Shown here: positions 13,555 to 22,197 of the stretch, in pieces | Numbering within the stretch: the first letter of the stretch is position 1 | Layout: each line of letters starts with the position of its first letter | Origin: Chitinophagaceae bacterium | Lineage (GTDB): Bacteria > Bacteroidota > Bacteroidia > Chitinophagales > Chitinophagaceae | Length of the DNA: 64,000 bases | NCBI GenBank assembly: GCA_025934485.1 | Contig: JAICXX010000001.1 | Location: 1 to 64,000 of the forward strand | Reading direction: 5' to 3' | Notes under the pieces: model-generated | Databases searched by the model: none | Told to the model about the DNA's origin: nothing | What the model saw: the letters and a program-made list of their open reading frames with translations, nothing else | Made by a program: the position numbers and the translations under genes

Positions 13555-13628
13555 TTTTTGCTTTTACCCAACGTTTTTCCAAGCATAGCCGTACGTTTGG
13601 GAGGATCAATCCTCTTAACCGTTAAATT

Positions 13629-15044
13629 ATGTTTATGAAGAACAAGTTTTACACCTTTATCTTACTGATCTTATGTTGCGGGTGGTGGACCGCCCGCGCG
13701 CAGGACTCTACCACTGCGTGCAATGCACAGTTTTCCGCCTCGGTGAGCGGTAACACGGTCGCTTTGAGGGCGGTGGACTCTGCTGCCTGGGTTCAGCATC
13801 TATGGATTTTCGGCGACACCAGCCAGCTTGGCTATGGTCCGTACGTGACGGCGACCCATACCTATAGTCATCCGGGCACCTATCGGGTGACCCATTTGGT
13901 TCGCGATTCGGCTGTGGGCTGTTTCGATTCATCGTCGCAGCTGGTCACTATCGGTGCGCCGCCGCCGCAGTGCAGCATCACTTTTATGTATAGCCACGAC
14001 AGCACCCGGCCGGGCCAGCCGTATTATTTCTATGCCCAGCCGAATCTGGGAGGTGCCTCCGCGGATACGGTTACGTGGAGGGTAAACGATACCATCGCCG
14101 GCACGGGCGACACGCTGGTCCGGGTATTACCCAACGGCGCCTCCAACGTCTGTGCGAATTTGGTGACCAGCTCGGGTTGCCAGAGCCAGTTTTGCCAGAC
14201 GATCGTTGTCGGCGATACCACGACGACACCTCCGCCACCCACCTGCAGCGTGAATGTTACCTACAGTCACGACAGCACCCAGCCGAATCAGCCATACATT
14301 TTCTTTGCTCAGCCGTCGCTGGCCGGCGCCACTTCGGACTCGGTTATCTGGCGGGTTAACGATACCATCGCCGGCATTGGCGATACCCTCGTCCGCGTTT
14401 TACACAATGGCATGAATACCGTCTGCGCGAACCTGGTCACCAATCTGGGGTGTCAAAGCCAGGCATGTGTCGCCATCCTGGTCGGCGATACCACGCCGCC
14501 GCCGCCGCCGCCACCCGCTTGCAGCATCAGCGTTACGGTAAGCCACGATAGCACCCGGCCGAATCAGCCCTATACGTTCAACGCGTTTGCGTCTATAGAC
14601 TCCGCCACCTCCGATTCGATCACCTGGTCGGTGAATGGTACCGCTGTGGGTACGGGTACTTCGCTTACACGTAGTTTCAGCAACGGAACCTACACGGTAT
14701 GTGCGGCGCTGGTTACCAATTTAGGTTGCACGAGCACGTCTTGCCAAACGATCACCGCCACGGATTCAACGGCGACGCCGCCGGACACCGCCGGCCAGCC
14801 GATCCGCTGTTTCCCCAACCCTGCATACAGCTCGACCAATGTCATCATCACGCTTAAAGCTCCGACGATGATCTATGTACGGGTCTACAATAGCATGGGC
14901 GGTGAGGTGGAAGAAAAGACCGTTTCCGGTTTCAGGGGTGCAAATATTATAAACGTGCCGCTGGGCTCGCTGCAACAAGGCATCTACTATATCCAGCTGC
15001 AATACGGCAATGAACTTAAACGCAGCAGGATACAGAAATTATAG
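13629..15044 (+). CDS. Secreted PKD-type repeat protein with a T9SS-like C-terminal sorting domain
   Basis: Signal peptide; PKD motif (WIFGDTSQLGYGPYVTATHTYSHPGTYRVTHLV); three internal repeats; C-terminus CFPNPAYSSTNVIITL...GIYYIQLQYGNELKRSRIQKL. Confidence 0.85.
   Translation: MFMKNKFYTFILLILCCGWWTARAQDSTTACNAQFSASVSGNTVALRAVDSAAWVQHLWIFGDTSQLGYGPYVTATHTYSHPGTYRVTHLVRDSAVGCFDSSSQLVTIGAPPPQCSITFMYSHDSTRPGQPYYFYAQPNLGGASADTVTWRVNDTIAGTGDTLVRVLPNGASNVCANLVTSSGCQSQFCQTIVVGDTTTTPPPPTCSVNVTYSHDSTQPNQPYIFFAQPSLAGATSDSVIWRVNDTIAGIGDTLVRVLHNGMNTVCANLVTNLGCQSQACVAILVGDTTPPPPPPPACSISVTVSHDSTRPNQPYTFNAFASIDSATSDSITWSVNGTAVGTGTSLTRSFSNGTYTVCAALVTNLGCTSTSCQTITATDSTATPPDTAGQPIRCFPNPAYSSTNVIITLKAPTMIYVRVYNSMGGEVEEKTVSGFRGANIINVPLGSLQQGIYYIQLQYGNELKRSRIQKL
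13971..14768 (+). repeat. Three internal coding repeats of about 273/276/249 bp (CSI/V...SHDSTxPxQPYxF...) with polyproline linkers
   Basis: Repeat starts at 13971, 14244 and 14520. Confidence 0.85.
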
Positions 15045-15052
15045 GCAGGACG

Positions 15053-15607
15053 TTGTATTCAAGAGAGGATGACATACAAATAATAATCCAGGGTTGCCTC
15101 AAAAACAACCGAAGGGCGCAGGAGGAGCTCTACAAGCGATATTATCCTGCGATGATGGCGCTTTGTCTCCGCTATTTGCGGGATCGCCAGGATGCGCTGG
15201 AAGTTTTGAATGATGCCCTATTGAAAGTTTACAAGCAAATGGGCCGCTTTGATCCAACCAAAGCGGCCCTTTATACCTGGATGCGAGCGATCGTGATCAA
15301 TACGGCGCTCGATGCGCTGCGGAGGCAAAAGGCGTTACGTGACAGGGAGATGATGCCCGAGGAGGAGGAACAACCCGGCGTCGACAACAAGGCGATCGCC
15401 AAGCTCAGCGGTAACGAATTATTGGGTGTCATCCGGCAGCTGCCCGCGACTACCCGGACGGTATTCAATCTCTATGTCGTCGATGGGTATGCGCACAAGG
15501 AGATCGGGGCTTTGCTATCGATCAGCGAGGGTACAAGCCGGTGGCATCTCAATGATGCGCGACGGCAGCTTAAGATGATCTTAAACCTTATGGAACCGAA
15601 AACTTAA
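15053..15607 (+). CDS. ECF-type RNA polymerase sigma factor
   Basis: Region 2 (AQEELYKRYYPAMMALCLRYLRDRQDALEVLNDALLKVYK) and region 4 (QLPATTRTVFNLYVVDGYAHKEIGALLSISEGTSRWHLNDARRQLK); TTG start. Confidence 0.92.
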   Translation: MYSREDDIQIIIQGCLKNNRRAQEELYKRYYPAMMALCLRYLRDRQDALEVLNDALLKVYKQMGRFDPTKAALYTWMRAIVINTALDALRRQKALRDREMMPEEEEQPGVDNKAIAKLSGNELLGVIRQLPATTRTVFNLYVVDGYAHKEIGALLSISEGTSRWHLNDARRQLKMILNLMEPKT

Positions 15608-17025
15608 TGGATAGACAGCCACATAATAACCTTTGGGCTGAGAAGCTGTTGCAGGTGTCCATGCCGGATAGCGGTGAGGCCTGGGCTGGTATGGAAGTCA
15701 TCCTTGACCGTGAGCTGCAGCAACGTTTACGGAGCGATTGGCGGAGGTGGCTGCTCGTGCTCCTTTTGTTGCTTCTGCTTATCGGCGTCTGCAATTGTCC
15801 GGGGCGTGGGCGTCTTTTCCATCGTTCGGGGCACGACTCCCGCATTTCCGGTGCTCTCCCTGCGACCCCGGCGAAGGCCCCGGCCGGCGGGAACCCGGCG
15901 AGCCCGGCTACGGCGACGCCTGTGAGTCCGGAAAATCCCGTGGTACAGTCTCCCGCGACTGCCGCGAACCCGGCGGCTCCTGAACCAACCACGCGTGCGA
16001 CCCGGCACAACCGGCGGACCCTTGCAGTCACGCCATCCGGGCGGCCGACGCCCGCAGCGCCACGCGGATCATCCGGGTCCGCCACACCCACAGCCTTTGG
16101 CGACGTCACACAGACCGCGCCGGATGGCTCACCGGTTGCGAAAACCTCCTTTCGGCGGCCACCGGCGAAGAGCAATCTAACCGCTGCCGGGGACACGGTC
16201 ACAAAGAAGAACGTCCCCGCCGCCAGCGATACGGCTGGGAAGAAGAGCACACCCGTGTTGCCAAAAGCCGTGTCGCGCAAAGACAGCTTGCACAGGAAAC
16301 CGCCCCCGCCCCCGCAGGAAGAGGACCAAAAGGAAAAAGACCATGGCTGGGTCTTTGGCATCGGCCTCAATCAGTTCTTTCCTATTGGCGGTCAAAGAGG
16401 CTCGACCTACAACGCGGATGGCCTCACGGGCACGCTAAGCGACTATCTGCCGGTGCCGATGATCCGCTATTACTTCAATCACAAGGCTTATCTCCAGGTG
16501 GAAGCACAGCTCAACACGCCACAGGCCACGAAGAAGAACCTTGTCTTCAACTCTGTGCTACACGACAGCACTTCCATACCCGGGGAAAATGTACAGACGT
16601 CAGCGACCCTTCAGCAGCTCTATTATTTCAATATCCCGCTGAGTTTTCACTATGCGGTGACGGACGAGCTGAACATCGGGACTGGTCTCCAGTTCTCTCA
16701 TTTGGGCAATGCTATCGGCAATTTCGACAGCACACTTACGAATTTGAGGACGCTGGAGGTAACGAATCCAAAGGACACGAAGAGCTTCAAAGACGATACG
16801 CTTTATCGGCGCATCAGGACGAACGAGTTCCGGTTCCTGGTAGATGCCAGCTACACCTGGAAGCATATTGTCCTGGGAGTGCGGTATAACCAAGCGCTGA
16901 GCAAGTTCATCAATGTCCCGCTGCCCACGGGAGGAAGTACGCAGTCGCGCAATAGCTCGCTACAGATCTATGTGCGGTATATCTTATGGGATACGCGGAA
17001 AAAGAAGAAGCAGGGGCCGCCGTAG
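15607..17025 (+). CDS. Single-TM, Pro/Ala/Thr-linker protein with an outer-membrane beta-barrel-like C-terminus
   Basis: About 47-aa N-terminus, TM stretch WLLVLLLLLLLIGVC, low-complexity linker, then amphipathic beta-strand-rich domain (WVFGIGLNQFFPIGGQRG...FRFLVDASYTWKHIVLGVRYNQALS...SLQIYVRYILWD). Confidence 0.8.
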   Translation: MDRQPHNNLWAEKLLQVSMPDSGEAWAGMEVILDRELQQRLRSDWRRWLLVLLLLLLLIGVCNCPGRGRLFHRSGHDSRISGALPATPAKAPAGGNPASPATATPVSPENPVVQSPATAANPAAPEPTTRATRHNRRTLAVTPSGRPTPAAPRGSSGSATPTAFGDVTQTAPDGSPVAKTSFRRPPAKSNLTAAGDTVTKKNVPAASDTAGKKSTPVLPKAVSRKDSLHRKPPPPPQEEDQKEKDHGWVFGIGLNQFFPIGGQRGSTYNADGLTGTLSDYLPVPMIRYYFNHKAYLQVEAQLNTPQATKKNLVFNSVLHDSTSIPGENVQTSATLQQLYYFNIPLSFHYAVTDELNIGTGLQFSHLGNAIGNFDSTLTNLRTLEVTNPKDTKSFKDDTLYRRIRTNEFRFLVDASYTWKHIVLGVRYNQALSKFINVPLPTGGSTQSRNSSLQIYVRYILWDTRKKKKQGPP

Positions 17026-17041: not shown

Positions 17042-18973
17042 CTACCGCCCGAATAGTTTTTCTACATAATCTTTTTTGAACTCGATGTAGGTGGGATCGC
17101 CGCCGGGGGTGACATTGTGTTGCGCACAGGCAAACAGCCCGTCTACCAGGGTCCGCATCTCCCTTTCGGTTAGGAGCGTACCCGCTTTGATAGAACCCTG
17201 CCGGGCGAGGCTGCGGATCAACTTCTCCCGCCGCGAGAACCGGATCTCGCTGGTAAAATTCTTGTATTGTTCGAGCAGGCTTTCCATGGCGACCTTTTCG
17301 TTGCCCTGAGAAGTGTCGCCTGGCGTCCCCTGGATAATGAAACTATCCTTTCCAAAGGGCTCGATACTATAGCCCAGGGGTTGCAGATCGGGCAGCAGCT
17401 CGGTGAGCAGGATCGCGTCGGGGGCGCCAAGCGTCAGCGTCACGGGGAACAGGCTCTTCTGGCTGGGGATATGTTGGCCTATCGAAGCTTCCTTATAGCG
17501 TTCATAGAGGATGCGTTCATGTGCCGCCTGTTGATGGATGAGGATAAAGCTCCGGTTGGTCGGTGTCACGATGTAGGTGGCGAGCAATTGCTGCAATGGC
17601 GCATTTTCGATGGGCATGATACGGTTTGGCGTCGCCGTCATCCAGCTTTCGCCAGCCGCGCCGGACCCGCCACTCGTTGCGCCATCGCCCGATGAGGCTG
17701 AGTCACCCGGCGAACCCACGCCCGAAACTGAACCCGCGCCCGAAGCCGAACCCCCGGCCGCATAGCCGGTCTTCTTATCGGCGGGTCCCTCGTAGAAATC
17801 CTTCCAGTGGCGAAGCTCGCTTTTGTTGGTAGGCTCGATGAGGTGCGCCTGGTTCTTTTGCGTAAATGTCTTGTATAAGGAGCTGGAAGTAACCTCCGCC
17901 TTCTTCTCGTCCGACACCGGCTTGCTTATTGCATCGAGCCGCTGGATATTGGGGTCGAGATCGAAGTCCAGCGTCGGCGTAATGCTGAACTGTGCCAGCG
18001 CATGTTTCACCGCCGCCTGGACGAAGGCATAAACGATCTTCTCGTCTTCGAATTTGATCTCCTGCTTCGTAGGATGAACGTTGACGTCTACTTGCTGTGG
18101 ATCGAGATCGATAAAAAGCGTATACAGCGGGAACGCATCCCGCGGGATCATGTCCGTAAAGGCACTCATGATCGCATGATTGAGATACGCACTGCGGATG
18201 AACCGGTTGTTCACAAAGAAATATTGGTCGCCGCGCGTCTTCTTGGCCGTCTCCGGCTTGCCGACGAAACCATAGATATTCAGGTAGTCGGTGTTCTCCT
18301 GGACCGAGACCAGCTTGCTTGCATAGGAGTTGCCCAGGATCTGCACCGCGCGTTGTTTGAGGCTTCCTTTTTCAAGATGCATCATCTCCTGGCCGTTCGA
18401 TGAAAGCGAGAAAAAGATCGCCGGGAAAGCCAGCGCTACGCGCGTAAATTCGTCGACGATATGCCGCATCTCGGAGGGGTTGCTCTTCAAAAAATTCCGG
18501 CGCGCGGGCACGTTGAAGAAAAGGTTCTTCATGCAAATGCTGGTGCCCGTGGCCATGGCCACCGGCTCCTGTCGTATGACACGGCTGTTCTCGATCTCGA
18601 CACACACGCCCATTTCGTCCTCGGCCCGTCGTGTCCGGAGCTCCACCTGGGCGACGGCGGCGATGGAAGCCAGCGCTTCGCCGCGAAACCCCATCGTCCT
18701 GATATGAAAGAGATCGTCGATATTCCTGATCTTCGAGGTGGCATGCCGTTCGAAGGCCATGCGTGCATCCGTCTCGCTCATCCCTTTGCCGTTGTCGACC
18801 ACCTGGATCAGCGCCTTCCCTGCGTCCTGCACGAAAAGCCGGATCTCGGTGGCGCCCGCATCCACGGCATTCTCCAACAGCTCTTTCACGGCGCTGCCCG
18901 GCCGCTGGATGACCTCTCCGGCGGCTATCTGGTTGGCGATGTTATCGGGCAATAATTGAATGATGTCTGGCAA
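17042..18973 (-). CDS. mutL: DNA mismatch repair protein MutL
   Basis: LLENAVDAGATEIRL, VVDNGKGMSE, TMGFRGEALASIAAV; C-terminal FACAQHNVTPGGDPTYIEF. Confidence 0.97.
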   Translation of the reverse strand: MPDIIQLLPDNIANQIAAGEVIQRPGSAVKELLENAVDAGATEIRLFVQDAGKALIQVVDNGKGMSETDARMAFERHATSKIRNIDDLFHIRTMGFRGEALASIAAVAQVELRTRRAEDEMGVCVEIENSRVIRQEPVAMATGTSICMKNLFFNVPARRNFLKSNPSEMRHIVDEFTRVALAFPAIFFSLSSNGQEMMHLEKGSLKQRAVQILGNSYASKLVSVQENTDYLNIYGFVGKPETAKKTRGDQYFFVNNRFIRSAYLNHAIMSAFTDMIPRDAFPLYTLFIDLDPQQVDVNVHPTKQEIKFEDEKIVYAFVQAAVKHALAQFSITPTLDFDLDPNIQRLDAISKPVSDEKKAEVTSSSLYKTFTQKNQAHLIEPTNKSELRHWKDFYEGPADKKTGYAAGGSASGAGSVSGVGSPGDSASSGDGATSGGSGAAGESWMTATPNRIMPIENAPLQQLLATYIVTPTNRSFILIHQQAAHERILYERYKEASIGQHIPSQKSLFPVTLTLGAPDAILLTELLPDLQPLGYSIEPFGKDSFIIQGTPGDTSQGNEKVAMESLLEQYKNFTSEIRFSRREKLIRSLARQGSIKAGTLLTEREMRTLVDGLFACAQHNVTPGGDPTYIEFKKDYVEKLFGR

Positions 18974-19152: not shown

Positions 19153-22100
19153 ATGAAGAAATTCACCTTGTTGCTCGCCTTTCTTGCTGCGATCACCGGC
19201 CTCCGTGCCCAAAGTCCCGCCTATTCCACCGATTCGGCCGATCATTGGGTCGACAGTGTTTTCAAGACCCTTTCCCCCGATGAGAAGATTGCCCAGCTCA
19301 TGGTGATCCGTCTCTCCGGCATCGATCCTGCCACACATAAGGCCGTATTCTATGATACGACAGTGGAAACGGCGATCCGCAAATACAACGTGGGGGGTAT
19401 CTGTCTGTTCCAGGGCGATCCACTCACACAGGCGGCGCATATCAATTATTATCAGGACATCGCCCGCACCCCCCTCCTCTTCTGCATCGACGCGGAGAAC
19501 GGTCTGGGCATGCGTATGGACAGCGTGGCGGGGCTGCCCCGGCAGATGATGCTGGGCGCCGCCGGCGACCCCGATCTCGTCTACCGCTATGGGCGGCTGG
19601 TAGGCAGCCAGTGCAAGAGAATGGGTATCCAGGTCAACTATGCACCCGTAGTAGATATCAACAACAACCCCGATAACCCGGTGATCAACGATCGCAGTTT
19701 CGGCGAAGACAAGACGCATGTCGCCGAATATGGTGTCGCCTATATGAAGGGACTGCAGGACCTGGGCGTCATGGCCTGTGCCAAACATTTCCCCGGCCAT
19801 GGCGATGTCTCCGTCGATTCGCATTTGGATCTCCCTGTGATTACCAAGAGCAAGAAACAGTTGGACTCATTGGAGTTGTATCCCTTTCGGGCGATGTTCG
19901 ACGCCGGTGTGGGAAGCGTAATGATCGCGCATTTGTACATCCCTGCGATCGACAATACGCCTAACAGGGCCACGTCGCTCTCTTATAACAATGTGACAAA
20001 GCTGCTGCGTAAACAGCTGCACTATCGGGGCATCAGCTTCACCGACGCCCTCGAAATGAAGGGTGTCGCGAAATACTACCCTGCCGGCGATGCTTCCGTC
20101 CAGAGCCTCATTGCCGGCAACGACATGCTATGTCTGCCCGGCGACGTTGGACTGAGCCTCGGGAAGATCGATTCCGCCATCAAAGTAAAGAAGATCCGCT
20201 GGAAGGACATCGACGCCCGGGTAAAGAAAGTATTGTATGCGAAGTATACCTACGGTTTGGCGCATTGGACACCGGTAAATAAGATCAATCTGACCACCGA
20301 TCTCAACGAAGGCGTGGCCGACATGCGCCGCCAGGTTGCTACCGATGCCCTCACGCTCCTGCGCAACGACGATCCTTCCGTGTTTCCCTTGCGTCCCGTG
20401 GATGCTATGACATCGGGCAAGGCGGCGGCGGGTCTCCGGCTTTTCAGGCACAAACGGGTCGCTTATATCGGCATGGGACTTACAGAAGACAACGAATTCA
20501 GCCACAGGATGCGTACCGACTACAACGCGCACGTCTATTTCTTCGATTATAACCTCGACAGCACCAAAGCCGCCGCGGCGCTCGAGCTGCTGAGCAATCG
20601 CTATGATGCCATCGTCATCGGCTTGCATAACTATGCGCGCTTCCCCGCCCACAACTTCGCCATCAGCGCTCCTGCCACGTGGCTTCTGCAGCAGCTGCAG
20701 CAAAAAGAAAAGACCGTGACGTTTGTCTTTGGCAACCCCTATGCCATCCGCAATACGTGCGATGCGCGGGTGCTGGTCGCCTGTTATGAAGACGACGATA
20801 TCACCCAGGACGTAGCCGCCGATCTCCTCAATGGAAAGTTTGTCGCGCATGGCCACCTCCCCGTGACCGTTTGCCCCCAATGGAAGGCCGGCGCCGGCCT
20901 CACGGATTCGCTGGTCACTTTGCCCACCGTCAAACCGGCGCAGGAGGGGATGGATGCAGCCAAGCTGGACAAGATCGACGCAATTGCCGAAGAGGCCATC
21001 GCAAAGAAGGCGACGCCCGGCTGCGTCGTGCTGGTGGCGCGGCATGGCAAGATCGTTTATCACAAAGCTTTCGGTTATCTCACGTATGACAAGACGGAGC
21101 CGGTGTATAAAGAGACCATTTATGATATGGCTTCCTGCACCAAGATCTGTGCGACGACGATGGCCACGATGCGGCTGTATGATGAAGGCAAGATCGATCT
21201 GCAAAAAACGCTGGGGGATTATCTGCCCTGGGTGCGCGGCAGCGACAAGGATACGCTGAAGCTCATCGACATCATGCTGCATCAGGCGCGGCTGGTGCCC
21301 GATGTGGTGTTCTATAAGGAATGTGTCGACAGCAGCAAGGAACAGTATCCTCTTCCCTGGATCTTCTCGACGAAGGCCGACAGTACGCATGGGGTGCGTG
21401 TCGCCGAGAACCTGTATCTGCGTAACGACTGGCGGGACACTATGTGTCTGCGCATCGTGCAAAGCAAGCTGATGCCGCCGCACAAGTACATCTATAGCGA
21501 CAACGATTTCATCTTGATGGGGCTCATTGTCGAGAAGGTGACGGGGATGACGCTGGATCAATATGTGAAAACAACGTTTTATGATCCGCTCGGGATGACG
21601 TCTACCGGCTTCCTGCCCCGCAATCGTTTCCCGCTCGGCCGCATCGCCCCGACTGCCGACGAGCCCATCTTCCGTCACCAGCTGATCCGCGGGGATGTCC
21701 ATGACCCCGGTTCGGCGATGTTCGGTGGGGTGTGCGGACACGCCGGGTTGTTTAGCGATGCCTATGACCTCGCCGTTCTGGCGCAGATGTTGCTCGATGG
21801 TGGCTCGCTCAACGGGCAGTCGTTCATTAAAAAGTCTACGATCGATTACTTTACCGATTATCATAGCGACATCAGTCGTCGTGGGATAGGCTGGGACAAA
21901 CCGGAGAAAGACAATGCCACTCGTCGCGAACCTTATCCGTGCCTGTCCGCCTCGCCGCTGACTTTTGGGCACACCGGATTTACGGGCACTTGTGTGTGGG
22001 TCGATCCGAAATATGATCTTACGTTCATTTTTTTGTCCAATCGGGTGAACCCTATCGAGAACGATCCCTGGTTATCCCGGCTCAACATCCGCGGTCGCAT

Positions 22101-22197
22101 ACAGGAGACCGTCTATCAGAGCATGGGCGTCGATACTCGCGCCAACACGAAAGCCCCCGTGCCGGAGAAGAAAAAGAAACACCACAAGAGGCATTGA
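19153..22197 (+). CDS. Bifunctional GH3 (NagZ-type) beta-N-acetylhexosaminidase fused to a class C beta-lactamase-like serine hydrolase
   Basis: GH3: KHFPGHGDVSVDSHLDLP, FTDALEMKGV; serine hydrolase: SCTK, YSDNDFILMG, HTGFTGTCVWVDP; signal peptide. Confidence 0.92.
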   Translation: MKKFTLLLAFLAAITGLRAQSPAYSTDSADHWVDSVFKTLSPDEKIAQLMVIRLSGIDPATHKAVFYDTTVETAIRKYNVGGICLFQGDPLTQAAHINYYQDIARTPLLFCIDAENGLGMRMDSVAGLPRQMMLGAAGDPDLVYRYGRLVGSQCKRMGIQVNYAPVVDINNNPDNPVINDRSFGEDKTHVAEYGVAYMKGLQDLGVMACAKHFPGHGDVSVDSHLDLPVITKSKKQLDSLELYPFRAMFDAGVGSVMIAHLYIPAIDNTPNRATSLSYNNVTKLLRKQLHYRGISFTDALEMKGVAKYYPAGDASVQSLIAGNDMLCLPGDVGLSLGKIDSAIKVKKIRWKDIDARVKKVLYAKYTYGLAHWTPVNKINLTTDLNEGVADMRRQVATDALTLLRNDDPSVFPLRPVDAMTSGKAAAGLRLFRHKRVAYIGMGLTEDNEFSHRMRTDYNAHVYFFDYNLDSTKAAAALELLSNRYDAIVIGLHNYARFPAHNFAISAPATWLLQQLQQKEKTVTFVFGNPYAIRNTCDARVLVACYEDDDITQDVAADLLNGKFVAHGHLPVTVCPQWKAGAGLTDSLVTLPTVKPAQEGMDAAKLDKIDAIAEEAIAKKATPGCVVLVARHGKIVYHKAFGYLTYDKTEPVYKETIYDMASCTKICATTMATMRLYDEGKIDLQKTLGDYLPWVRGSDKDTLKLIDIMLHQARLVPDVVFYKECVDSSKEQYPLPWIFSTKADSTHGVRVAENLYLRNDWRDTMCLRIVQSKLMPPHKYIYSDNDFILMGLIVEKVTGMTLDQYVKTTFYDPLGMTSTGFLPRNRFPLGRIAPTADEPIFRHQLIRGDVHDPGSAMFGGVCGHAGLFSDAYDLAVLAQMLLDGGSLNGQSFIKKSTIDYFTDYHSDISRRGIGWDKPEKDNATRREPYPCLSASPLTFGHTGFTGTCVWVDPKYDLTFIFLSNRVNPIENDPWLSRLNIRGRIQETVYQSMGVDTRANTKAPVPEKKKKHHKRH

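Follow-up and report, generated by a model that had tools for sequence, protein, structure and literature searches.

Whether one polypeptide chain can connect an outer membrane barrel to a cytosolic sigma factor is the question raised by two overlapping genes of a Chitinophagaceae bacterium (assembly GCA_025934485.1). They lie in a 64,000-nucleotide stretch of contig JAICXX010000001.1, called the window here. The initial annotation had proposed an ECF sigma factor followed by a single envelope-spanning protein. The sigma gene and the next ORF were found at the proposed coordinates and on the proposed strand (Table 1), including the one-base overlap at 15607. In the TAATG at 15605 to 15609, the last base of the sigma TAA is also the A of the ATG of the 472-aa gene. 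The sigma gene product matched the Pfam domains Sigma70_r2 (1.5e-16) and Sigma70_r4_2 (5.6e-11). The two genes very probably form a Dma-type sigma/anti-sigma pair, in which one chain would run from a cytosolic sigma-binding head to an outer membrane barrel, a surface signal would free the sigma factor, and the sigma factor would transcribe its own operon. Four elements of this reading are inferred for the window protein: the sigma binding, the two-membrane topology, the kind of signal and the control of the operon by its own sigma.

Table 1. Positions in the window of the genes of the operon, the candidate promoter and the parts of the 472-aa protein
Feature	Position	Strand	Evidence
Candidate ECF-type promoter of the operon, CCCAAC-N17-CGTA	13567..13593	+	Conserved in orthologous loci
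PKD protein, 471 aa: signal peptide, PKD domains, T9SS type A C-terminal sorting domain	13629..15044	+	PF18911 1.1e-7; PF18962 3e-6; TIGR04183 32.9 bits, over cut-off
ECF sigma factor, 184 aa, TTG start, Das-like	15053..15607	+	Pfam/NCBIfam matches; Das clade
Dma-type 472-aa protein	15607..17025	+	ORF; homologues; AlphaFold models
Residues 1-47, predicted cytoplasmic anti-sigma head	15607..15747	+	Motif P-D-x3-A-W-x2-M-x4-L-D-x-E
Residues 48-64, predicted inner membrane TM helix	15748..15798	+	Hydropathy 2.78; model helix 22-61
Residues 65-246, disordered Pro/Ala/Thr-rich predicted periplasmic tether	15799..16344	+	pLDDT mostly <50
Residues 247-462, predicted eight-stranded outer membrane barrel	16345..16992	+	Barrel-only model

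The N-terminus of about 47 residues ending in RSDWRRW is present in the 472-aa protein as annotated. Among 33 heads from across the class, Trp26 was invariant and Leu33 nearly invariant. The single transmembrane (TM) stretch was also recovered, residues 48 to 64 being hydrophobic (Kyte-Doolittle value, 2.78). Positive charges are located on both flanks of the predicted helix, and the positive-inside rule is therefore not decisive for this protein. The Pro/Ala/Thr-rich stretch that follows is present, but its length is about 183 residues and not 170. This tether is composed of 16% Pro, 15% Ala, 11% Thr and 9% Ser and has no Cys. In 49 homologues, the tether ranged from 112 to 370 aa (SD, 61), whereas the barrel part ranged from 207 to 285 aa (SD, 12); a variable tether next to a barrel of nearly constant length is as expected of a spacer. 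At 0.36 nm per residue, the shortest tether (112 aa) would have a contour length of about 40 nm. Where the TM helix is predicted to reach the periplasm, the sequence VCNCPGR (residues 61 to 67, 15787 to 15807) contains two cysteines, which are kept in the closest homologues and not in the distant ones.

Structure prediction, which had been proposed as a check, was run on the protein of 15607 to 17025 alone and on its C-terminal domain by itself, and the latter was predicted with high confidence as an eight-stranded barrel. The full-length AlphaFold model (14 homologues) consisted of helices at residues 10 to 16 and 22 to 61, disorder from residue 62 to about 244, and then eight strands; as a whole this model is of low confidence (pLDDT, 59.6), with nearly all of residues 62 to 229 at a pLDDT of <50. 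The barrel-only model (38 homologues) contained eight strands with a pLDDT of 89.5 and a pTM of 0.83. The solved structures nearest to it in a Foldseek search were the outer membrane barrels OmpA, Ail, OmpX and NspA; the E-values were significant, but the TM-scores were modest, about 0.5 at most, and the rmsd was large. The modeled strands and these nearest folds indicate that the strand-rich C-terminus is probably a barrel, as had been claimed, and not a soluble domain. A sequence search of solved structures gave nothing useful. In Pfam, the domain was nearest to OMP_b-brl_2 (PF13568, PorT-like barrels) and DUF7849, both under the curated cut-offs; for OMP_b-brl_2, the score was 20.3 to 22.2 bits against a cut-off of 27. 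This family was matched in 12 of the 38 homologous domains, and the homologues reached an E-value of 8.7e-10. Judged by its sequence, the C-terminal domain resembles OMP_b-brl_2 but falls outside the family cut-off.

Homologues of the 472-aa ORF were present in 13 of 60 related genomes, with identities of up to 60%, and the closest named record was a 54%-identical protein in a metagenome-assembled genome called Puia dinghuensis, which probably places the window in Puia or close to it. A genome neighborhood survey, also proposed initially, was made with nonredundant homologues of at least 340 aa from the family and class samples. The same architecture recurred, and an ECF sigma gene was located upstream, within -88 to +35 nt, in 59 of the 63 homologues, with an overlap in 42. 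Two of the four homologues without an adjacent sigma gene are at contig ends. Where the homologues were read with an intact upstream region, the ECF sigma gene was directly upstream in all of them. The homologues have the same start point, overlapping the sigma stop, and do not start downstream of the hydrophobic stretch. It is unlikely that this stretch is a cleaved signal peptide, since it is preceded by the head of about 47 residues, which is conserved across the class. The head-plus-TM profile matched 334 of 396 sampled Bacteroidia genomes, a count that includes some short barrel-less anti-sigmas. Evidence for Dma-like proteins now reaches well beyond the gut Bacteroidales. Further Dma-like pairs were seen on three contigs of the genome that contains the window. 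The TTG start of the sigma gene (15053) is also found in most close homologues, and the anti-sigma gene starts with ATG; a TTG sigma start beside an ATG anti-sigma start may hold the anti-sigma in excess.

Dma1 of Bacteroides thetaiotaomicron was reportedly described in PNAS in 2024. By the published definition, a Dma protein begins with an anti-sigma domain, continues through a TM helix into a long disordered tether and ends in a barrel; such proteins adjoin an ECF21 sigma factor and are found only in Bacteroidota (PMC13088901, J Bacteriol 2026). Such an anti-sigma factor was described in Phocaeicola in 2022, and mutation of the homologue there resulted in sigma-dependent envelope changes (PMC9308784). 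The reading of the window protein as a single envelope-spanning chain is thus supported in substance, but the architecture was already known and is common in Bacteroidota. The window protein shares with Dma1 and Dma2 the head, the TM helix, the disordered tether, the C-terminal barrel, an adjacent cognate ECF sigma and a Bacteroidota host. The neighborhoods differ, in that dma2 of B. thetaiotaomicron is accompanied by DUF4943, DUF4858 and an enoyl-ACP reductase-like gene, whereas the window operon has a T9SS PKD leader gene and a place between dacB and mutL. The sigma genes of the Phocaeicola vulgatus pair M0N98_03760/03761 and the B. fragilis EcfO pair are likewise followed by a gene for a large, predicted periplasm-spanning anti-sigma with an outer membrane barrel; for the P. 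vulgatus pair, the trigger is the toxin BcpT, which likely acts by stressing the envelope (PMC9308784). In cell-surface signaling (TonB-dependent transducer, FecR-type anti-sigma and FecI-type sigma), an outer membrane event also controls an ECF sigma, but two proteins are used where the window has one, and the window sigma fell outside the FecI-like sigmas that were sampled.

The B. thetaiotaomicron dma2 operon contains DUF4943 as BT_1557 (PMC13088901), and by means of DUF4943 this operon was recovered in two Bacteroidaceae genomes. The recovered genes come in the order sigma, Dma, DUF4943, further genes, enoyl-ACP-reductase-like, in agreement with BT_1559 to BT_1555. The Bacteroides Dma2 found in this way has a total length of 356 aa, and its tether is shorter than the 183 aa of the window protein. 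A profile of the head from which Bacteroides sequences had been left out matched dma2 in the DUF4943 operon with E-values of 9.6e-5 (L153) and 1.5e-3 (L154) and a second Bacteroides Dma-like gene (L157) with an E-value of 1.6e-5, all from small search sets. The profile-profile comparison of the head with Bacteroides Dma was significant (8.6e-7; probability, 91.5%) but short, covering 33 columns, and weak. When full-length profiles were compared, the head alone aligned, with a probability of 21%, and the barrels were unaligned. At the sequence level, the window barrel is not demonstrably homologous to the Bacteroides Dma barrel.

In a tree of 78 sigma factors, one clade (support, 100/100) contained the window sigma together with the Dma-linked sigmas and five Bacteroides Das-type sigmas; it stands apart from the PG0214-type and other ECF sigmas. 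The clade includes the Das2-type sigma of the dma2 operon, which has been assigned to ECF21 (PMC13088901). Against sigma_PG0214 (NF058625), the window sigma scored 63 bits with a cut-off of 130, and the two are separate in the tree. The PG0214-type family was also tried as a route to Dma and was rejected, its neighbors being short unrelated anti-sigmas. Three members of the clade (L092, L098 and L099) adjoin short head-plus-TM proteins without a barrel, indicating that the barrel may have been gained by, or lost from, an ordinary anti-sigma.

We propose that one helix would anchor the 472-aa protein in the inner membrane and that the cytosolic head of about 47 residues would bind the ECF sigma. 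The disordered tether would cross the periplasm to the eight-stranded barrel in the outer membrane. There the barrel would sense a change in this membrane or at the surface, whether caused by a ligand, by its own misassembly or by damage to the envelope. Pull on the chain, loss of its anchoring or its proteolysis would then carry the signal inward and set the sigma free. The freed sigma would transcribe its own operon from the CCCAAC-N17-CGTA element at 13567, including the gene of the T9SS-exported PKD protein. In Bacteroides, deletion of dma2 upregulated das2 and the operon genes, and the effects of the deletion needed das2 (PMC13088901). These data support sigma control in Bacteroides, and we infer the same step for the window protein.

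The tether might instead be cleaved, resulting in a separate inner membrane anti-sigma fragment and a free barrel, with signaling by regulated proteolysis and not through a continuous chain. Many other anti-sigmas are released by proteolysis, and a tether that is long, disordered and unconserved in sequence may be a good protease substrate. However, the fusion need not persist if the parts worked separately, yet the single ORF is kept across the class, and published Dma models take the chain as intact (PMC13088901). Cleavage of the tether is thus considered unlikely. It is highly improbable that the protein is an ordinary barrel, in the outer membrane or as a lipoprotein, whose long signal sequence is cleaved and whose sigma neighbor is incidental, and this reading was rejected. 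The end of the TM segment (LIGVCNC) is loosely lipobox-like, but its -1 residue is Val, which is outside the usual lipobox, and the Cys is missing from more distant homologues. The 47 residues ahead of the TM segment are conserved and are found again on the three shorter barrel-less TM proteins that follow an ECF sigma, and the sigma gene is adjacent in nearly all homologues.

The PKD gene, the first of the operon, ends eight bases before the sigma gene. GldL is encoded in the genome, which makes the presence of a T9SS likely. In seven genomes (the window and six others), the unit begins with a T9SS PKD gene, 0 to 47 nt before the sigma gene. Four other genomes have a lipoprotein-like leader gene, and another four have a dacB-like gene as the nearest upstream neighbor of the sigma gene; the dacB of the window is one gene farther away.

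Of 19 orthologous loci, 17, the window included, carry the element CCCAAC-N17/18-CGTA ahead of the gene that opens the unit, against an expectation of 0.011; these loci are related and not independent draws, and the DNA surrounding the element has diverged. Directly before the sigma gene, the element was found neither in the window nor in any of the 10 other loci with an extra first gene. This placement suggests an autoregulated promoter, which would tie the surface protein to the circuit. The 6.75-Mb genome has a single match to a longer form, CCAACGTTN13-15CGTA, and this match is the one at the operon. Genome-wide, the shorter form (CCCAACN17-18CGTA) gave 14 matches versus 28 for the reversed control and was thus not enriched, and for this reason no wider regulon is named. 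The element was absent upstream of the Bacteroides das genes and of two paralogous pairs in the same genome. It could serve in regulon mapping.

The PKD or lipoprotein leader and the promoter-like element are new relative to the literature cited on Dma. The position of the leader suggests that the T9SS-exported protein belongs to the signal that is sensed or to the response. It is conceivable, if doubtful, that the locus encodes a three-part surface-to-cytosol circuit, in which the exported PKD protein, or a surface lipoprotein elsewhere, would serve the Dma barrel as its ligand or as a sensor cap, and the cell would monitor its own surface export with feedback on the shared promoter. The locus is a lead on what Dma proteins sense, as the leader surface protein differs between genomes within the same autoregulated-looking operon. 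Downstream, the convergent mutL gene (17042 to 18973) holds its place next to the pair in most close relatives. It is followed at 19153 to 22197 by a gene for a 1,014-aa protein, in which a Glycosyl hydrolase family 3 domain is fused to a beta-lactamase-family domain.
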